From Thermoleophilaceae bacterium (GTDB lineage: Bacteria; Actinomycetota; Thermoleophilia; Solirubrobacterales; Thermoleophilaceae), in NCBI GenBank assembly GCA_036378175.1, contig DASUWY010000016.1, positions 1-64,000 of the forward strand: a stretch of 64,000 bases of DNA. Reading direction: 5' to 3'. A program made the translations under genes and the position numbers. The notes beneath the pieces are model-generated. The model was not told where the DNA came from. It made no database searches and saw only the letters and a program-made list of their open reading frames with translations. Of the stretch, positions 56,188-61,968 are shown one piece after another. Within the stretch, counting starts at the first letter, position 1. Each line of letters begins with the position of its first letter.

Positions 56188-57270
56188 CTAGCTGAGCAGG
56201 TCCGCCCGGGTGGTCCCGGACGAAGCGCTGGTCGTGCCGCCGTCAAGCACGATCCGCGTGGTCGCCACGCGCAGTGGCTCCGCGCTCTCGCCCACGGCGG
56301 CGATCACGGTGAGCGAGCCGCCCTCCTCGACCTTGCGAGCAGCGCCGAAGACGCGCCGGGCGACGGCCGAGGGCAGCGCGTCCAGCGAGTCGACCACCAC
56401 AACGGCGTCGCGGCCCTGCTCGACCGCGCGCTTTGCGCGCTCCACAGCCATCTCCGCGACCTGCGCCTGCTCTTCCTGCGAGCCGTCAAAGGCGCCGCCC
56501 GCGACGGTTATTCCGCTCTCGCGCCGCCACTCGGTGACCTCCTCGGGCCGCACGCCCGCGAGCACCACCACGGGCTCGAGCTCGCCGCCTCCGAGCGACG
56601 AGACGATCCGCCGGAGCAGCGATGTGGCACCCGCGCCCGGCGGTCCCGCGATCGCCACGCGGGAGCCCTTGCCGAATGGCGCGTCCAGGCCGTCAGGACT
56701 CGGCAGCCGCTCGGTGGCGAACACCGCCGTGAGGTCCTCGAAGCGCGGCCGGTCGGCGGGCGGCTCCGGCTCCTGGCCGTTCACCGCGTCGATCCGCACG
56801 AGCGACGGGTAGCGTTCCGAGCGCCGCGGCGGCCTCACGGGCCCTGAGATCTCATCGCCGGCGCGCAGCTCGCAGCGGCGGATCTGCGCGGGTGAGACGT
56901 ACACGTCGTCACGCGAGTGCGAGAAAGGATCCGAGCGCATGAAGCCGCTGCCGTTCGGGAGGATGTCGAGCACGCCCGTGCGGACGTCTTCCTCCTCGGG
57001 CTCGGGCTCCGGTTCGGGCTCGGCCTCGGCCTCGGCCTCGGCCTCTTCTTCCTCCTCCTCGGCTTCGCGCTCCTCAACCACGGCCTCCGCCTCGGCGGCA
57101 CGGTCGCGCTCCGGCGGCTCGTCGCCGTCCTCGGGCTGGTCCTTGAGGATCGCCCCGATCAGCTCCTCCTTGCGCATCCGGCGAAAGCCCTCCACGCCGA
57201 GCTCCGACGCGATCGCGTGCAGATCGGCCAGCGGGCTCTGCTCGAGCTCTTTGCGGTCTAGGACTGACAT
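56188..57270 (-). CDS. Rho-like protein with lost ATPase residues
   Basis: A 360-residue Rho homologue (true Rho is usually 415 or more). Order: SAP-like N-terminal domain (ADLHAIASELGVEGFRRMRKEELIGAI), acidic repeat (60-94), an intact RNA-binding cold-shock domain (GVLDILPNGSGFMRS, DVYVSPAQIRRCELRAGDEI, GPVRPPRRSERYPSLVRI), then a RecA-like domain. Walker A is GPPGAGATS: the invariant Lys is Ala215. The catalytic Glu position before RPEEVT is Val240. The Q-loop segment and the region with the arginine finger are missing. It probably binds RNA but cannot translocate. It follows the transaldolase gene by 4 nt. Confidence 0.85.
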   Translation of the reverse strand: MSVLDRKELEQSPLADLHAIASELGVEGFRRMRKEELIGAILKDQPEDGDEPPERDRAAEAEAVVEEREAEEEEEEAEAEAEAEPEPEPEPEEEDVRTGVLDILPNGSGFMRSDPFSHSRDDVYVSPAQIRRCELRAGDEISGPVRPPRRSERYPSLVRIDAVNGQEPEPPADRPRFEDLTAVFATERLPSPDGLDAPFGKGSRVAIAGPPGAGATSLLRRIVSSLGGGELEPVVVLAGVRPEEVTEWRRESGITVAGGAFDGSQEEQAQVAEMAVERAKRAVEQGRDAVVVVDSLDALPSAVARRVFGAARKVEEGGSLTVIAAVGESAEPLRVATTRIVLDGGTTSASSGTTRADLLS

Positions 57271-57274
57271 GTGC

Positions 57275-57970
57275 TCAGTGCGTCGCGGCCGCGCGCGACT
57301 CAACGAGGCCGTTGAGCCATTCGCCGAACTCGGGCCGCTCCTTCCAGTCCGCCGCGAAGCGGTCGATGCCCGCGGTGGTGAGCGGGTGGTCGAGCATCTG
57401 GTGGAGCACCTTGGCCGGCACGGTGGACACCTCGCAACCGAGCCGCGCCGCGGTGACCACGTGCTCCGGGTGGCGCATCGAGGCAGCGAGCACCTGCGAC
57501 GTTGTGCCGCCCGGCCGCAGCGCCTCCACGATCTCGCGCACAACGTCGGTGGAGTTGATCGAGATGTCGTCGAGCCGGCCCATGAAGCAGGAGATGTAGG
57601 TGGCGCCCGCCTCGGCGGCAAGCAGCGCCTGGTTGGCGGAGAACACCAAAGTCATGTTGATCCGGATGCCGTCCTCCGACAGCGCGCGGCACGCGGCGAG
57701 ACCCGCCGTCGAGAAGGGCGTCTTGACGATCACGTGCTCGTGCAGCTCGGACAGCGCACGGCCCTCGGCGATCATGCCCTCCGCGTTGTCTGAGACCACC
57801 TCGGCGGAGACGGGGCCGTTCACGAGGTCGCAGATGCGGCGAATGATGTCGCCGGGATCGCCATCCTCCTTCGCGAGCAGCGAGGGATTCGTGGTTGCGC
57901 CGGAGAGGATGCCCCAGCCCGCGATCTCCTCCACTTCCGCGACGGAGCCCGTGTCGATAAAGAGCTTCAT
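57275..57970 (-). CDS. tal: Transaldolase, TalC/fructose-6-phosphate aldolase type
   Basis: A 231-residue class I aldolase-fold enzyme. Schiff-base Lys83 in VIVKTPFSTAG; FIDTGSVAEVEEIAGWGILSGATTNPSLLAKE (in part: GILSGATTNPSLLAKE) and GIRINMTLVFSANQALLAAEAG are family blocks. Small transaldolases of this type exchange dihydroxyacetone units in the pentose phosphate pathway; some act as F6P aldolases. The ATG overlaps the 2-phosphoglycerate kinase stop (ATGA), so sugar-phosphate genes are co-expressed here. Confidence 0.92.
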   Translation of the reverse strand: MKLFIDTGSVAEVEEIAGWGILSGATTNPSLLAKEDGDPGDIIRRICDLVNGPVSAEVVSDNAEGMIAEGRALSELHEHVIVKTPFSTAGLAACRALSEDGIRINMTLVFSANQALLAAEAGATYISCFMGRLDDISINSTDVVREIVEALRPGGTTSQVLAASMRHPEHVVTAARLGCEVSTVPAKVLHQMLDHPLTTAGIDRFAADWKERPEFGEWLNGLVESRAAATH

Positions 57971-58806
57971 CGGGCCTCCGATGATGACACACGGCTCACA
58001 GAGTCGAGCACGAGGTCCATCAACCGCGGCAGCGCGCGATCGATGCTGTCGTTCTGAATCACTGCCACACCCTCCTCCTTCGCCCGTCCGACGAGGTAGT
58101 TCTGAAGCTTGCGGATCTGCTCGAAGCGGCTGAGGTAGCGCTCCGCGGGCCGGTGGCCGCCGCGCATCGCGAAGTGGCTGCGGTGAAGCTCCTCGTCGTC
58201 GACGCACAGCACCGCCTCGACCGCGACGCAGCGGTCGTGCAGCTCCTCGCGCAGCGCGCCCGGCACGAGATGGATGCCCTCGAGCACCATCGGCGTGCGC
58301 TCGAGGCACGCTCGCTCGACGATCGCCTCGACGCCTGTGGCGATGCTCTCCGCCTGGCGGACGAAGCCGATGAGGTCCCGATCCTCGTCCTGGCCGATCA
58401 CGAGGTCGACTGCCTTGCCCGCCTCGAACGCGGAGTAGTGAACAGCCGGCATGAACTCACGCGAGAAGAATGCCCGGAGCACCTGACGGATCACATCTGT
58501 GGCGATCACGCGCGTGATGCCGAGACGGGCGGCGAGCATCGTGGCGAGCGTGGACTTGCCGACGCCCGTGCTGCCGGCGAGCAGGACCACGAGCGGCCTG
58601 TCGAGGCGGTCGAGCCGCTGCCACTCGTGGAAGCGGCGCACAGCGTCTCCGCCCACCTCCTCGAGGAGGACCTCCTCCACGAGCTCGTTGAGGTCGGCCA
58701 CCGTGATGTCGGACAGCGTGCGCTCGTGAAGACGCCGCTCCACGATGCGCGCGAGCTCGTACGCGCGGTCCGGCGACAGGCCGGACGCCGACAGCGACTG
58801 CGCCAT
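57967..58806 (-). CDS. 2-phosphoglycerate kinase
   Basis: A 279-residue protein. Residues 3-62 look like an ATP-cone (SLSASGLSPDRAYELARIVE, ELVEEVLLEEVGGDAVRRFH), followed by a P-loop kinase: AGSTGVGKSTLATML (Lys84), IATDVIRQVLRAFFSREFMPAVH, GVEAIVERACLERTPMVLEG and GIHLVPG. The layout and these words match archaeal 2-phosphoglycerate kinase, which makes 2,3-bisphosphoglycerate from 2-PG and ATP, the first step of cyclic 2,3-diphosphoglycerate synthesis. AAAGG precedes the ATG. First gene of a kinase-transaldolase-Rho-like operon. Match is by recall of the family, not alignment. Confidence 0.83.
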   Translation of the reverse strand: MAQSLSASGLSPDRAYELARIVERRLHERTLSDITVADLNELVEEVLLEEVGGDAVRRFHEWQRLDRLDRPLVVLLAGSTGVGKSTLATMLAARLGITRVIATDVIRQVLRAFFSREFMPAVHYSAFEAGKAVDLVIGQDEDRDLIGFVRQAESIATGVEAIVERACLERTPMVLEGIHLVPGALREELHDRCVAVEAVLCVDDEELHRSHFAMRGGHRPAERYLSRFEQIRKLQNYLVGRAKEEGVAVIQNDSIDRALPRLMDLVLDSVSRVSSSEAR

Positions 58807-58891
58807 CAGACCTTTCGAGTAGGGAAGCTGCTGTCGGCCGTCCCCGCCGATGATCTGAACTTCTTGCGGTTTCTCGCGACTGCTCAGTGTG

Positions 58892-58920
58892 CTTCCCGCC
58901 CAGTTTGGGCCTGCGGGAAG
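58892..58920. terminator. 8-bp hairpin upstream of the 2-PGK operon
   Basis: CTTCCCGC (58892-58899) and GCGGGAAG (58913-58920) pair around 13 nt that include CCCAGTTTGGG. Lies between the small membrane gene and 2-phosphoglycerate kinase. Confidence 0.45.
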
Positions 58921-58936
58921 GAGTCAGGATAAGCCT

Positions 58937-58964
58937 CGGGCCGCCGCGTGAGCGCGACGGCCCG
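58937..58964 (-). terminator. Hairpin terminator after the small membrane peptide gene
   Basis: CGGGCCG (58937-58943) and CGGCCCG (58958-58964) pair, with an inner CGCG/GCGCG. It lies 16 nt after the stop codon of the peptide gene on the minus strand. Confidence 0.5.
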
Positions 58965-58979
58965 ATCTCATGGTCTGGG

Positions 58980-59111
58980 TTAGTAGCCGCCTCCAGCGCC
59001 TCCACCGCCGCCGCCACCGGAATAAACGGCGATCAGCGTGATGGCAAGCGCGACCACGATCAGCACTGCGATCGCGATCAGCAGCCGACGGTGCTGAGCC
59101 AGATTGTTCAT
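58980..59111 (-). CDS. Small membrane peptide with Gly-rich tail, 43 residues
   Basis: The product begins MNNLAQHRRLLIAIAVLIVV, continues as one membrane helix (about residues 9-28, ending TLIAVY) and closes with a Gly-rich tail SGGGGGGGAGGGY. A strong Shine-Dalgarno (GGGAGGTGAGGG) lies upstream of ATG 59111; an open frame before it is rejected. It sits between the two cDPG genes on the same strand. No family is recognised; a membrane anchor or small regulator role is possible but unproven. Confidence 0.65.
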   Translation of the reverse strand: MNNLAQHRRLLIAIAVLIVVALAITLIAVYSGGGGGGGAGGGY

Positions 59112-59191
59112 CGAACCCTCACCTCCCGTGTGCGTCGATGACCGGCTCTCTCCAAGTAGACGTGAGCGGGCCGCCAAATCTGCCCGGGTCT

Positions 59192-60418
59192 TTAGACGCG
59201 GTTGTGGAGCTCGAGCAGTTCTGCGTCCAGATCGGTGTCAATTGCCACTGGACGGTTGCGGAGGAACACCAAGCGGGCGCCTTCCCGCTCGGCACGAACA
59301 GCAACTGTGTCGATCGCGGCTGCCTTGAGCTCGACCAGATAGACGTCGCAGCGCTCCGCGGCCGCGCGATCGAGCTCTCGGTCGAGCTCCGAGCGGCGCG
59401 CGAGCGCTGTGGAAGCCACCACGGGCTCCACCGAGTCCGCGTACGTGGCTCCCGTGGTGAAGAGCGCCACGCGTGCGTCCGGGTGCGGGACCTCCACCGG
59501 CTCGGTCACAAGCGTGCATCGCAGTGAGGGGCAGGGCAGATCGCCGTAGTCGTGGTCGCCCATCAGGAGCGCGAGCCTGCTGCGCAAGAGCGGGTAGATG
59601 CCAAGGCCGCTGAGATCCGCTTCCCGGCCGACGACGCACACCGTCGCGTCCGCCTCGAGCGGCGGGATGCACGAGCCGGAGCCCTCGAAGATGAGCACGT
59701 CCGGTTCGAGCGAGGCGGCGAGGCGCGCGCCATCGGGCACGTTCGACTCGAACGGCTCCCCCGCGAGCCCGCCGCCCACGCGCCGGCAGCCCACTGTGGG
59801 AACGCCCGCCAGCACCGCGTCCTCGAGGTAGTCGGAGGCCGCGTGCCGGCCGTTCATCGCGATCGCGCGCAGGTCGGCGAGGGAGGTGCCGGCTTGCGCC
59901 ACCTGGGGCTCCGCCGGCCCCCCGCGGCCCATCGACACGATCACCGGCGCCACGCCACGCGCGCGGAGCAGCCCGGCCCAGTGCCCGGCCACGGCCGTCT
60001 TCCCGGTGCGCTTGCCGGTGCCGATCACGGCGAGCTTGGGCCCATCGAACTGCACGGGCTCGTAGCGCGGAGGCGTGAGAAGCGTGCCCGGTGCCTCGTA
60101 TGGAAGCCCCGCGTGCAGCGCGAGCGCGGCGAGCCTGAGCTTCACGGGCGGCGGCAGCACCGGCTCGTCCGCCAGATCGACCACTGCCCGCGCGCCCGCG
60201 GCGCGTGCGCCGCGCAGCACCGCCTCCGCGTCGTGCTCGATCGCGAAGCCGTAGTGACGCTCGGGCTCGGCCAGCACCTCACCCCTCACCTTCTCCTCAC
60301 CACCGCAGAACACCACGGCCGAGACGCCGCGCTCACGGTCCAGCCGCTCCAGCGCGTCGCGCACGGCTGCGGGATGGTGCTCGCCATCGATCAGCGCCAC
60401 GACTGGGCCGCGTTCCAT
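59192..60418 (-). CDS. Cyclic 2,3-diphosphoglycerate synthetase
   Basis: A 408-residue protein. MERGPVVALIDGEHHPAAVR, AVVFCGGEEKVRGEV, the P-loop IGTGKRTGKTAVAGHW (residues 132-147), VSMGRGGPAEPQVA, GCRRVGGGLAGEPFESNV, and LIFEGSGSCIPPLEAD fit the archaeal cDPG synthetase, which closes 2,3-bisphosphoglycerate to the cyclic diphosphate using ATP. cDPG is a thermoprotectant and phosphate store in some methanogens. ATG 60418 starts a normal N-terminus; CACAAT lies seven nt before it. With the kinase 0.4 kb downstream it completes the pathway. Confidence 0.85.
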   Translation of the reverse strand: MERGPVVALIDGEHHPAAVRDALERLDRERGVSAVVFCGGEEKVRGEVLAEPERHYGFAIEHDAEAVLRGARAAGARAVVDLADEPVLPPPVKLRLAALALHAGLPYEAPGTLLTPPRYEPVQFDGPKLAVIGTGKRTGKTAVAGHWAGLLRARGVAPVIVSMGRGGPAEPQVAQAGTSLADLRAIAMNGRHAASDYLEDAVLAGVPTVGCRRVGGGLAGEPFESNVPDGARLAASLEPDVLIFEGSGSCIPPLEADATVCVVGREADLSGLGIYPLLRSRLALLMGDHDYGDLPCPSLRCTLVTEPVEVPHPDARVALFTTGATYADSVEPVVASTALARRSELDRELDRAAAERCDVYLVELKAAAIDTVAVRAEREGARLVFLRNRPVAIDTDLDAELLELHNRV

Positions 60419-60441: not shown

Positions 60442-60819
60442 CTAGCGCGCGTGCTCGAGCTCCCACAGCTCGAGCTGCCTGTCGGGCCCGTGCTCGAGCC
60501 CGTAGTGCTGGTAGAGCTGCAACTCCGCGCCGTCCGAGAGCACCTCGTCGCGGCGAAGCTGGGGTGAGCCCTTGGTGGCGGGCTTCTCGATGTCCACGAT
60601 CAGCGCGCCACCTTCCTCGAAGGCGCCGGCCAGCGGCACCAGAACGGAGCGGAGACCAAAGAGGCCGGTGCGGACCAGGCCGAACATCGGCCGTTGGCTG
60701 TCCTTGTCCACGTAGAGACCGCTCAGACGGCCGATGTGGTCACCTTCGCGATCGAACACGTCCATCCCGGGCCAAGCCCGCGCGTCCTCGATCCCGACTG
60801 CATCCATCATTTGTGCCAT
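60442..60819 (-). CDS. PRC-barrel domain protein
   Basis: A protein of about 122-125 residues with a PRC-barrel: GMDVFDREGDHIGRLSGLYVDKDS, PMFGLVRTGLFGLRSVLVPLAGA, then an acidic C-terminus (DGAELQLYQHYGLEHG). PRC-barrels bind RNA, photosystem or envelope components; the role here is unknown. The start is uncertain: ATG 60819 has GGAG touching it, while the same GGAG is nine nt before ATG 60810, which is a better distance. It lies 23 bp upstream of the cDPG synthetase gene in the same direction. Confidence 0.8.
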   Translation of the reverse strand: MAQMMDAVGIEDARAWPGMDVFDREGDHIGRLSGLYVDKDSQRPMFGLVRTGLFGLRSVLVPLAGAFEEGGALIVDIEKPATKGSPQLRRDEVLSDGAELQLYQHYGLEHGPDRQLELWELEHAR

Positions 60820-60986
60820 CTCCAACAATGTCGCGCCTCCGAGCGGGCTATGTCGCCCGCTCGGGACGCGTGCCTCTCCGTACCTCAAATTGATGATTCC
60901 GGGAGCTTCGCCCGATAAACCTTTGCGGTAGAGGAGAATTGCGCCAGATCTCGAATAACGCGTGTCAACCGAGGAGGTGAACGCGT

Positions 60987-61133
60987 ATGCCAGAGGGCTA
61001 TTGCGTGAAGGAGAAGAAGAAGGTCGAGATCCAGAACCCGCAGCAGGTGACCATGAAGAACGGTCGCCCCGCGATCCAGGGCACCTGCCCTGACTGTGGG
61101 ACGAAGATCTTCAAGATCGGGAAACTGAACTGA
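60987..61133 (+). CDS. DUF5679-like small zinc-ribbon-type protein, 48 residues
   Basis: GAGGAGGTGA precedes ATG 60987. The product begins MPEGYCVKEKKKVEIQNPQQ, continues VTMKNGRPAIQGTCPDC and ends GTKIFKIGKLN. This matches the DUF5679 pattern (YC..C.KK.E..NP......NGRP...G.CP.CG). The first metal knuckle here reads CVKE, so its second Cys is lost; the second, CPDC, is intact. It may bind metal differently or through a partner. Role unknown. Divergent from the PRC-barrel gene, convergent with the phosphoesterase gene. Confidence 0.85.
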   Translation: MPEGYCVKEKKKVEIQNPQQVTMKNGRPAIQGTCPDCGTKIFKIGKLN

Positions 61134-61175
61134 GTATCGAGTCTCGAGTATCGAGCCACCCGATACTCGATACTC
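61132..61175. terminator. Repeat-based bidirectional terminator
   Basis: GAGTATCGAG occurs at 61132-61141 and 61146-61155; CGATACTCGATACTC (61161-61175) pairs with it, giving a 9-bp stem CGAGTATCG/CGATACTCG with a 7-nt loop. It overlaps the stop codons of both convergent genes. Confidence 0.65.
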
Positions 61176-61968
61176 ACCCCGTAGCGGTTTCGCCAAGCAA
61201 CGCCGCGGACTTTTCATACTCGTACGTCCGCGGATCGAACTGCAGAATCGCTTCTTGCTCGTGGAACGGGTACTTCCGGTAGACGGTCACGCGCTCCGGT
61301 GAGGCCTCGATCACGCCGTAGCAGGGCTTGGTCTTGCCCCGCAGGCGGGTGGTCGACACCGTGCCTGCGTTGACCACGAAGAGGTCCTCGAGGCGCCACG
61401 CGTACGACACGTGCTTGTGCCCCGAGAGCACCAGGTGGCAGTCGGCGCGCTGAAGGCACTCGAGGGCGTCGCCCGCGTCGTGCACCACGTTGCGCTCGCG
61501 GCCGGTCCCCGGCACCGGCAGCAGGTGGTGATGGAGGACGAAGATGCGCAGGTACGCGTCGCCCGCGAAGCACTGCTGTATCCACGGGTAGCGGCCGCGG
61601 CCGATCGTGCCGTGGTCCAGGTCCGGCTCGGTGGAGTCGATCGCCACGATCGACACGCCGTCGATGTGCAGGAACGTGGAGCGGTCGCCGAACAGCTCCT
61701 CGAAGTGGACGTAGCCCACGTTGCGCGAGTCGTGGTTGCCCGGCACCACGATCACCCGCTCGCACTCGAGCCTGTCGAGGTACTCGCGCGCGGTCTGGTA
61801 CTCGGGGCGGAAGCCGTCATTGGTGAGGTCGCCCGAGACGATCACGCAGTCCGGCCTCAGCTCGTTCAGCTCGGCGATCGCGCGCTCGAGCAGGCTGGGA
61901 ACGAAGTGCGGCGACCCGCAGTGCAGGTCCGAGATCTGCGCGATCGTGACGAGGCCGTCGCCGTTCAT
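61174..61968 (-). CDS. Metallophosphoesterase, class III cyclic-nucleotide phosphodiesterase-like
   Basis: A 264-residue calcineurin-type phosphoesterase with all metal motifs: QISDLHCG, VSGDLTND, VPGNHDSRN, HHHLLPV and SGHKHVS. Such proteins hydrolyse cyclic nucleotides or other phosphodiesters; the substrate cannot be fixed by sequence. No signal peptide, so cytoplasmic. It follows glpD in the same direction (15 bp gap) and may be in its operon. Confidence 0.9.
   Translation of the reverse strand: MNGDGLVTIAQISDLHCGSPHFVPSLLERAIAELNELRPDCVIVSGDLTNDGFRPEYQTAREYLDRLECERVIVVPGNHDSRNVGYVHFEELFGDRSTFLHIDGVSIVAIDSTEPDLDHGTIGRGRYPWIQQCFAGDAYLRIFVLHHHLLPVPGTGRERNVVHDAGDALECLQRADCHLVLSGHKHVSYAWRLEDLFVVNAGTVSTTRLRGKTKPCYGVIEASPERVTVYRKYPFHEQEAILQFDPRTYEYEKSAALLGETATG

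Follow-up and report, generated by a model that had tools for sequence, protein, structure and literature searches.

A putative cyclic 2,3-diphosphoglycerate gene cluster with a linked metallophosphoesterase in a Thermoleophilaceae bacterium and other Actinomycetota

The synthetase and kinase genes

The stretch of DNA analyzed here, referred to as the window, comprises 64,000 nucleotides of contig DASUWY010000016.1 from a Thermoleophilaceae bacterium. Its minus strand carries a gene cluster with homologues of the two enzymes of cyclic 2,3-diphosphoglycerate (cDPG) synthesis, 2-phosphoglycerate kinase (2PGK) and cDPG synthetase (cDPGS). In 5' to 3' direction the gene order is metallophosphoesterase, PRC-barrel protein, cDPGS, a frame of 43 residues, 2PGK, a transaldolase-family protein and a Rho-like protein. 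The first-pass annotation of this DNA had placed the synthetase and kinase genes on the same strand about 0.4 kb apart, and they were indeed found there with a spacing of 385 bp. cDPG itself, a salt-like compound that protects proteins and stores phosphate, has so far been associated with heat-loving methanogenic archaea. The pathway as such is known; new here are the range of hosts and a third gene, that of the metallophosphoesterase.

Judged by its sequence, predicted fold and aligned residues, the product of 59192–60418 (−), 408 amino acids from the ATG at 60418, is a full-length cDPG synthetase homologue. The only strong phmmer matches among solved structures were three cDPGS chains, 9sxb with an E-value of 8.4e-55 and 8ork and 8oru with 4.3e-52, while the next match reached only 0.009. 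A profile built from 24 sequences (the window protein and those of 21 bacterial and two archaeal loci) matched the Methanothermus fervidus enzyme 8oru over nearly its whole length (4.7e-171). The same 2,3-diphosphoglycerate (2,3-DPG)-bound M. fervidus structure was the best Foldseek match of the AF2 model (mean pLDDT 94.3), with a TM of 0.87 and an E-value of 9.9e-34, as against a TM of 0.42 for the first non-cDPGS match, LpxK. The nearest named relative among the best-scoring 80 of 255 confirmed loci, a Thermoleophilaceae metagenome-assembled genome (MAG), L096, is 81% identical.

In the M. fervidus enzyme, as described in the active-site passages of PMC10690619, K145, R146 and E45 contact 2,3-DPG, T150 and D208 are Mg ligands, K149 and K406 provide charge shielding, and E404 and T353 are among the ATP contacts. 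In the alignment, E45, K46, K145, R146, K149, T150, D208, T353, E404 and K406 of that enzyme correspond to E42, K43, K136, R137, K140, T141, D196, T322, E363 and K365 of the window protein, and the mapped catalytic and ligand residues are invariant across the 24 sequences. Equally invariant is the P-loop IGTGKRTGKTA, which the first-pass annotation had read correctly and which spans residues 132–142 (59993–60025, −). The alignment and structure prediction that it had recommended as checks thus support the identity of the synthetase, with the published catalytic residues kept except for one ATP contact, E305. The two proteins therefore share full-length homology, fold, the P-loop GTGKRxGKT, the Mg ligands and the E45, K145 and R146 contacts. 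They differ in that the window protein has an altered E305 loop and a shorter region after it, is only 31% identical (over 435 columns), and is encoded in a high-GC bacterium with a phosphoesterase gene upstream.

The kinase gene (57967–58806, −) encodes 279 amino acids from its ATG. Both of its best NCBIfam models are 2PGK models, PRK12337 with 268 bits (E 9.6e-80) and PRK04220 with 260 bits (E 2.2e-77), compared to 81 bits for the mevalonate-3-phosphate 5-kinase model. Like the proteins of these two models, the window kinase combines an ATP-cone (26 bits, partly read) with a P-loop kinase domain (GSTGVGKST), matches the profiles over a long stretch and is encoded beside cDPGS; unlike them, it has an uncertain ATP-cone N-terminus and scores under both curated equivalog cut-offs (603 and 343 bits, respectively). 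For the latter reason we class it as a 2PGK homologue, one that by its sequence probably works like 2PGK. Three deep bacterial relatives scored 290–326 bits on PRK04220 and thus likewise below 343. On the archaeal contig L125, cDPGS is followed by a 2PGK above the PRK04220 cut-off (367.8 bits), to which the window kinase is 38% identical. The first-pass identification of both enzymes is thereby sustained, though for the kinase at scores below the cut-offs of its nearest models.

Translation of the kinase probably does not start at the ATG at 58806. In frame upstream of this ATG, to about 58860, lies the conserved stretch GRQQLPYSKGL, and no ATG, GTG or TTG precedes it within the 39 open codons at 58807–58923 (−). 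In L096, a congener, the GTG that opens the kinase frame overlaps the stop of cDPGS, where the window has its 385-bp gap, and in congener G001 just 61 bp separate the two genes. An insertion near 58807–58923, beside the gap that the congener lacks, may have cost the kinase its normal start. Given the gap and the lack of a standard start, the two genes may be coupled more loosely here than in the relatives.

Distribution of the pair and the linked phosphoesterase

Within a set made up of the window genome and 60 relatives, cDPGS was found in 15 of 61 genomes, and a strong kinase match was present in the same 15, always on the same contig and close by. Among these carriers, the kinase of G011 has an internal stop and the cDPGS match of G028 is split in two; kinase matches in G015, G031 and G051 (E ~3e-4 to 6e-4) were taken as P-loop background. 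For the phylum, a sample of 396 Actinomycetota genomes was drawn evenly from a larger group, and kinase matches were called strong at E < 1e-30, so that four weaker ones (E 2e-7 to 7e-10) were scored as absent. cDPGS was detected in 200 and a strong kinase match in 198 of these genomes: 194 had both, 6 cDPGS only, 4 2PGK only and 192 neither (Fisher p 1.5e-99, a value that ignores kinship). The pair is a conserved trait and no oddity of one organism. The co-occurrence that the first-pass annotation had named as a check was borne out, and its picture of an archaeal-type pathway standing isolated in an actinobacterium was not, as about half of the sampled genomes carry the pair.

These numbers do not fit a statement of 2023 (PMC10690619) that confines cDPGS to hyperthermophilic methanogens; papers from 2023 and 2025 likewise portray cDPG as a speciality of these organisms. 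Excerpts of papers on ammonia-oxidising archaea mention a cDPGS gene outside methanogens (PMC7554672, PMC10811736), and a passage from 2005 notes that Thermus and Deinococcus share the 2PGK gene with archaea (PMC1274311). Searches of the open-licence literature, in which some query wordings may miss the usual spelling and one query listed 20 of 325 results, gave no paper whose entry dealt with cDPG synthesis in bacteria or with a cDPG hydrolase gene; automatic database names for single bacterial proteins may exist.

The locus comparisons below use 81 loci, the window and the best-scoring 80 of the 255 confirmed ones, a set that leans to close relatives. The named carriers among these best 80 include Thermoleophilaceae, Gaiellaceae, Gaiella, Coriobacteriia, Acidimicrobiia, a Rubrobacter MAG, Candidatus Geothermocultor, Geohydrothermomicrobium and two archaeal MAGs. 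Sources named in their record titles include palsa, fen, groundwater and sediment, and some of the names were taken as hot-spring lineages. As carriers come from such habitats, it is unlikely that the cDPG cluster generally serves to protect against heat.

In a tree of 26 cDPGS sequences the window family and one near relative form a clade of their own (100/100). Four rows, those of two MAGs, M. fervidus and 9sxb, were counted as archaeal; they are interspersed with deep lineages of actinobacteria, at deep forks that are weak (80–84) and with uneven composition. With archaeal sequences lying among bacterial ones at such support, "archaeal-type" is not a safe label, and transfer of cDPGS in either direction is not shown by these sequences. 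Of 28 genomes in the phylum to which the archaeal MAG L125 belongs, only that of L125 had cDPGS; by our own reading, its contig encodes HypF and a ribosomal protein of archaeal type as well. On the Thorarchaeota contig L156, cDPGS is followed by a match to 2,3-bisphosphoglycerate (BPG)-independent phosphoglycerate mutase. In this match (L156:3048–6004) the C-terminal part precedes the N-terminal one; the gene could be circularly permuted or fused, or the order could stem from the assembly.

Missed in the first-pass annotation was the metallophosphoesterase (61174–61968, −; 264 amino acids), which of all further neighbours accompanies the pair most constantly. When open frames were clustered over the 81 loci, cDPGS was recovered in 80, the kinase in 75, the metallophosphoesterase in 74, the Rho-like protein in 42 and the transaldolase in 34; some further frame clusters were antisense frames over these genes and were passed over. 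The phosphoesterase gene ends at most 200 bp upstream of the cDPGS start in 69 of the 81 loci and lies one gene away in the window. It was absent from the flanks of seven loci, each with at least 1.2 kb upstream of cDPGS (L099, L125, L152, L156, L160, L167 and L170).

A phosphoesterase profile separated its matches in the 396 genomes into two classes, a strong one at E ≤ 3.6e-64 and the next at E ≥ 2.9e-18. Strong matches occurred in 193 of the 200 cDPGS-positive and in 5 of the 196 cDPGS-negative genomes, and inspection of 20 genomes together with a tree indicated that part of this class is a paralogue encoded elsewhere. A threshold of E < 1e-100 removes most paralogues, along with partial genes, and gave 165/200 and 2/196; of the two negative genomes, one has its match at a contig edge and the other groups with the paralogues. 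The tree, calculated from 48 of 94 prepared rows (L201–L203 had been removed beforehand, having no usable frame), splits a cDPGS-adjacent clade from a paralogue clade with support of 97/92. Its label "elsewhere" refers to how a locus was fetched: L185 and L187 really lie beside cDPGS, and L184 is at a contig edge. Members of the paralogue clade (L186, L189–L200 and L204) lie away from cDPGS and were also seen in G126, G363 and G332, genomes devoid of the pair. Because this clade exists, raw phosphoesterase matches alone were rejected as a marker and adjacency was counted as well.

The window phosphoesterase matches PF00149 with 67.1 bits (gathering score 21.5). D14, H16, D47, N78, H79, H147, H184 and H186 are invariant in 13 sequences, and we take the motif residues to be the metal ligands of a binuclear phosphoesterase; a signature HHHLxPxPGTGRER is invariant as well. 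The nearest solved structures, both by sequence and by fold, are Rv0805 and GpdQ, which cleave cyclic nucleotides and phosphodiesters. Under curated cut-offs the protein falls short of CpdA (37 vs 225 bits) and SpdA (43 vs 400 bits). It thus resembles class III phosphodiesterase-type enzymes (Rv0805, GpdQ and the SpdA and CpdA models) in metal-ligand motifs and fold, and differs from them in being only about 20% identical, in its own signature and in its linkage to cDPGS.

A possible cDPG cycle and its alternatives

We propose that the cluster encodes a cDPG cycle that is ancient in many lineages of the Actinomycetota and not a recent gift from methanogens to this organism, a reading that we regard as fairly probable. 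Its synthesis part, in which 2PGK and cDPGS would make cDPG as the first-pass annotation had suspected, is likely on the gene evidence, and we hold it with good confidence. Going by its family, the kinase would phosphorylate 2-phosphoglycerate with ATP to 2,3-DPG. From its structural and residue identity with the solved enzyme, cDPGS would then spend a second ATP on ring closure, yielding cDPG and phosphate. The metallophosphoesterase may finally open or dephosphorylate cDPG, as its constant linkage and enzyme class suggest; that it opens the cyclic pyrophosphate is a tentative proposal, to which we give nearly an even chance. The trianionic cDPG could be a reserve of phosphate and carbon that can be mobilised again, and also a potassium counter-ion or osmolyte. 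Methanobrevibacter smithii is a mesophile. According to a review (PMC1224877), it also contains cDPG, and in Methanothermobacter cDPG is turned over rapidly and a cDPG hydrolase activity is present. The reaction we propose is the same as that of the Methanothermobacter hydrolase, which in excerpts of this review is known as an activity, with no gene named. A bolder version is speculative and, taken as a whole, rather unlikely: the three-gene cycle would be ancestral in a large part of the Actinomycetota, mostly in mesophilic lineages of soil, sediment and groundwater, with cDPG as phosphate and energy store and counter-ion, the methanogen pathway as one branch of a mainly bacterial family, and the phosphoesterase as the first gene proposed for cDPG breakdown.

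Several observations weigh against the proposed cycle. On the side of synthesis, the M. fervidus ATP contact E305 falls in a differing loop of the window protein (LLMGDHDYGD) whose column is not conserved, and for the ATP contact P335 (numbering derived from the chain) no window position was matched. The kinase lies below both 2PGK cut-offs, and its start codon is ambiguous, which leaves the ATP-cone N-terminus unclear. On the side of breakdown, the phosphoesterase is only distantly similar to known cyclic-nucleotide and glycerophosphodiester enzymes. One family, f10 (16 sampled genomes), keeps the pair with the paralogue only, one of its genomes having only a weak match; the paralogue was on another contig in the five genomes checked, and this pattern argues against the adjacent gene being strictly required. 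Both archaeal loci had no phosphoesterase in their flanks, and only distant matches were found elsewhere in those two genomes. The cDPG hydrolase activity reported from Methanothermobacter is membrane-bound, whereas the phosphoesterase here was treated in domain scan and model as one domain of soluble type.

With regard to synthesis, the two kinase-like enzymes could act sequentially on a different phosphorylated acid and form a related cyclic pyrophosphate instead of cDPG. The modest 31% identity to the M. fervidus synthetase, the kinase scores below the equivalog cut-offs and the altered ATP-contact loop would all be compatible with this. We nevertheless consider it improbable, since the 2,3-DPG contacts E45, K145 and R146 and the Mg ligands T150 and D208 are invariant in the 24 sequences, the 2,3-DPG-bound form is the best fold match, and on the Thorarchaeota contig a BPG-independent phosphoglycerate mutase match follows cDPGS. 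Very unlikely is a kinase that chiefly supplies 2,3-DPG as cofactor for the 2,3-DPG-dependent phosphoglycerate mutase, with cDPGS secondary. Such a role could be read from the 4 of 396 genomes with 2PGK only and from 2PGK-family matches in Thermus and Deinococcus relatives (used as controls; see the passage in PMC1274311). It is opposed by the near-perfect co-occurrence with cDPGS, and in the window genome, which is 95% complete, GpmA reaches 35 bits against a cut-off of 81.7. Cofactor supply is therefore not an evident purpose and was rejected as the main one. Since methanogens are where the family was described, one might suspect that a hyperthermophilic archaeon had recently donated the genes or contaminated the DNA, but the chance of this is negligible: the GC content is ~70% throughout the window, the same cluster recurs with diverged sequences in many relatives, and the archaeal sequences lie among bacterial ones. 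Contamination or a single recent transfer was accordingly rejected, being contradicted by the spread in relatives and in the phylum sample.

With regard to breakdown only, the phosphoesterase may be kept near the pair by general gene order, or may cleave cyclic nucleotides, and have no role with cDPG. We consider this quite possible, if somewhat doubtful. The Rho-like and transaldolase genes are retained nearby too, Rv0805 and GpdQ are the closest solved relatives, paralogues occur in genomes that lack the pair, and the f10 genomes carry the pair with no such gene beside it. On the other hand, retention in 74 of 81 loci is far above that of the Rho-like (42) and transaldolase (34) neighbours, and matches at E < 1e-100 occur in 165 of the 200 cDPGS-positive genomes but in 2 of the 196 negative ones. 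If the proposed cycle is right, cDPG would be a common metabolite that has been overlooked in many bacteria, most of them uncultivated; its role would have to be sought beyond heat protection, and a concrete breakdown gene would become testable. The mesophilic enzymes would also be on offer for the production of cDPG, which is wanted as a stabiliser.

Other neighbouring genes

Downstream of the kinase lies a conserved operon neighbour, a gene of the transaldolase/fructose-6-phosphate aldolase family (57275–57970, −), which scored 236 bits on TIGR00875 (cut-off 246; the scan began at 57940). Its start, the ATG at 57970, overlaps the kinase stop (ATGA), as had been noted in the first-pass annotation, and its presence near cDPGS in 34 of the 81 loci agrees with the link to sugar-phosphate metabolism drawn there.

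The 43-residue membrane peptide frame in the gap between cDPGS and kinase (58980–59111, −), earlier suggested to belong to the system, has a leader resembling a ribosome-binding site. It had no Pfam match and no significant relative in the 203 fetched loci (best tblastn E 2.6), and congener G001 has no room for it in its 61 bp. Therefore, we rejected it as a component. The PRC-barrel protein (60442–60888, −; PF05239, 25.6 bits), which stands between phosphoesterase and cDPGS in the window lineage, was likewise rejected as a part of the system, because the two flanking genes abut in most relatives.

The Rho-like gene (56188–57270, −; PF07497 and PF07498) is a conserved neighbour of the cluster, which we do not think is part of cDPG metabolism. 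Its product is the only Rho-like protein found in the 95%-complete window genome, other matches being taken as ATPase background. The P-loop reads GPPGAGATS, with no lysine at the Walker A position, and the match leaves out the C-terminal end of the Rho model; the same GAGAT loop is found in the Rho-like proteins of L096, L100 and L102. A Rho without ATPase would be odd. Finally, a small CxxC frame on the plus strand (60987–61133, +), located between the phosphoesterase and PRC-barrel genes, resembles, by eye, a zinc-ribbon protein.

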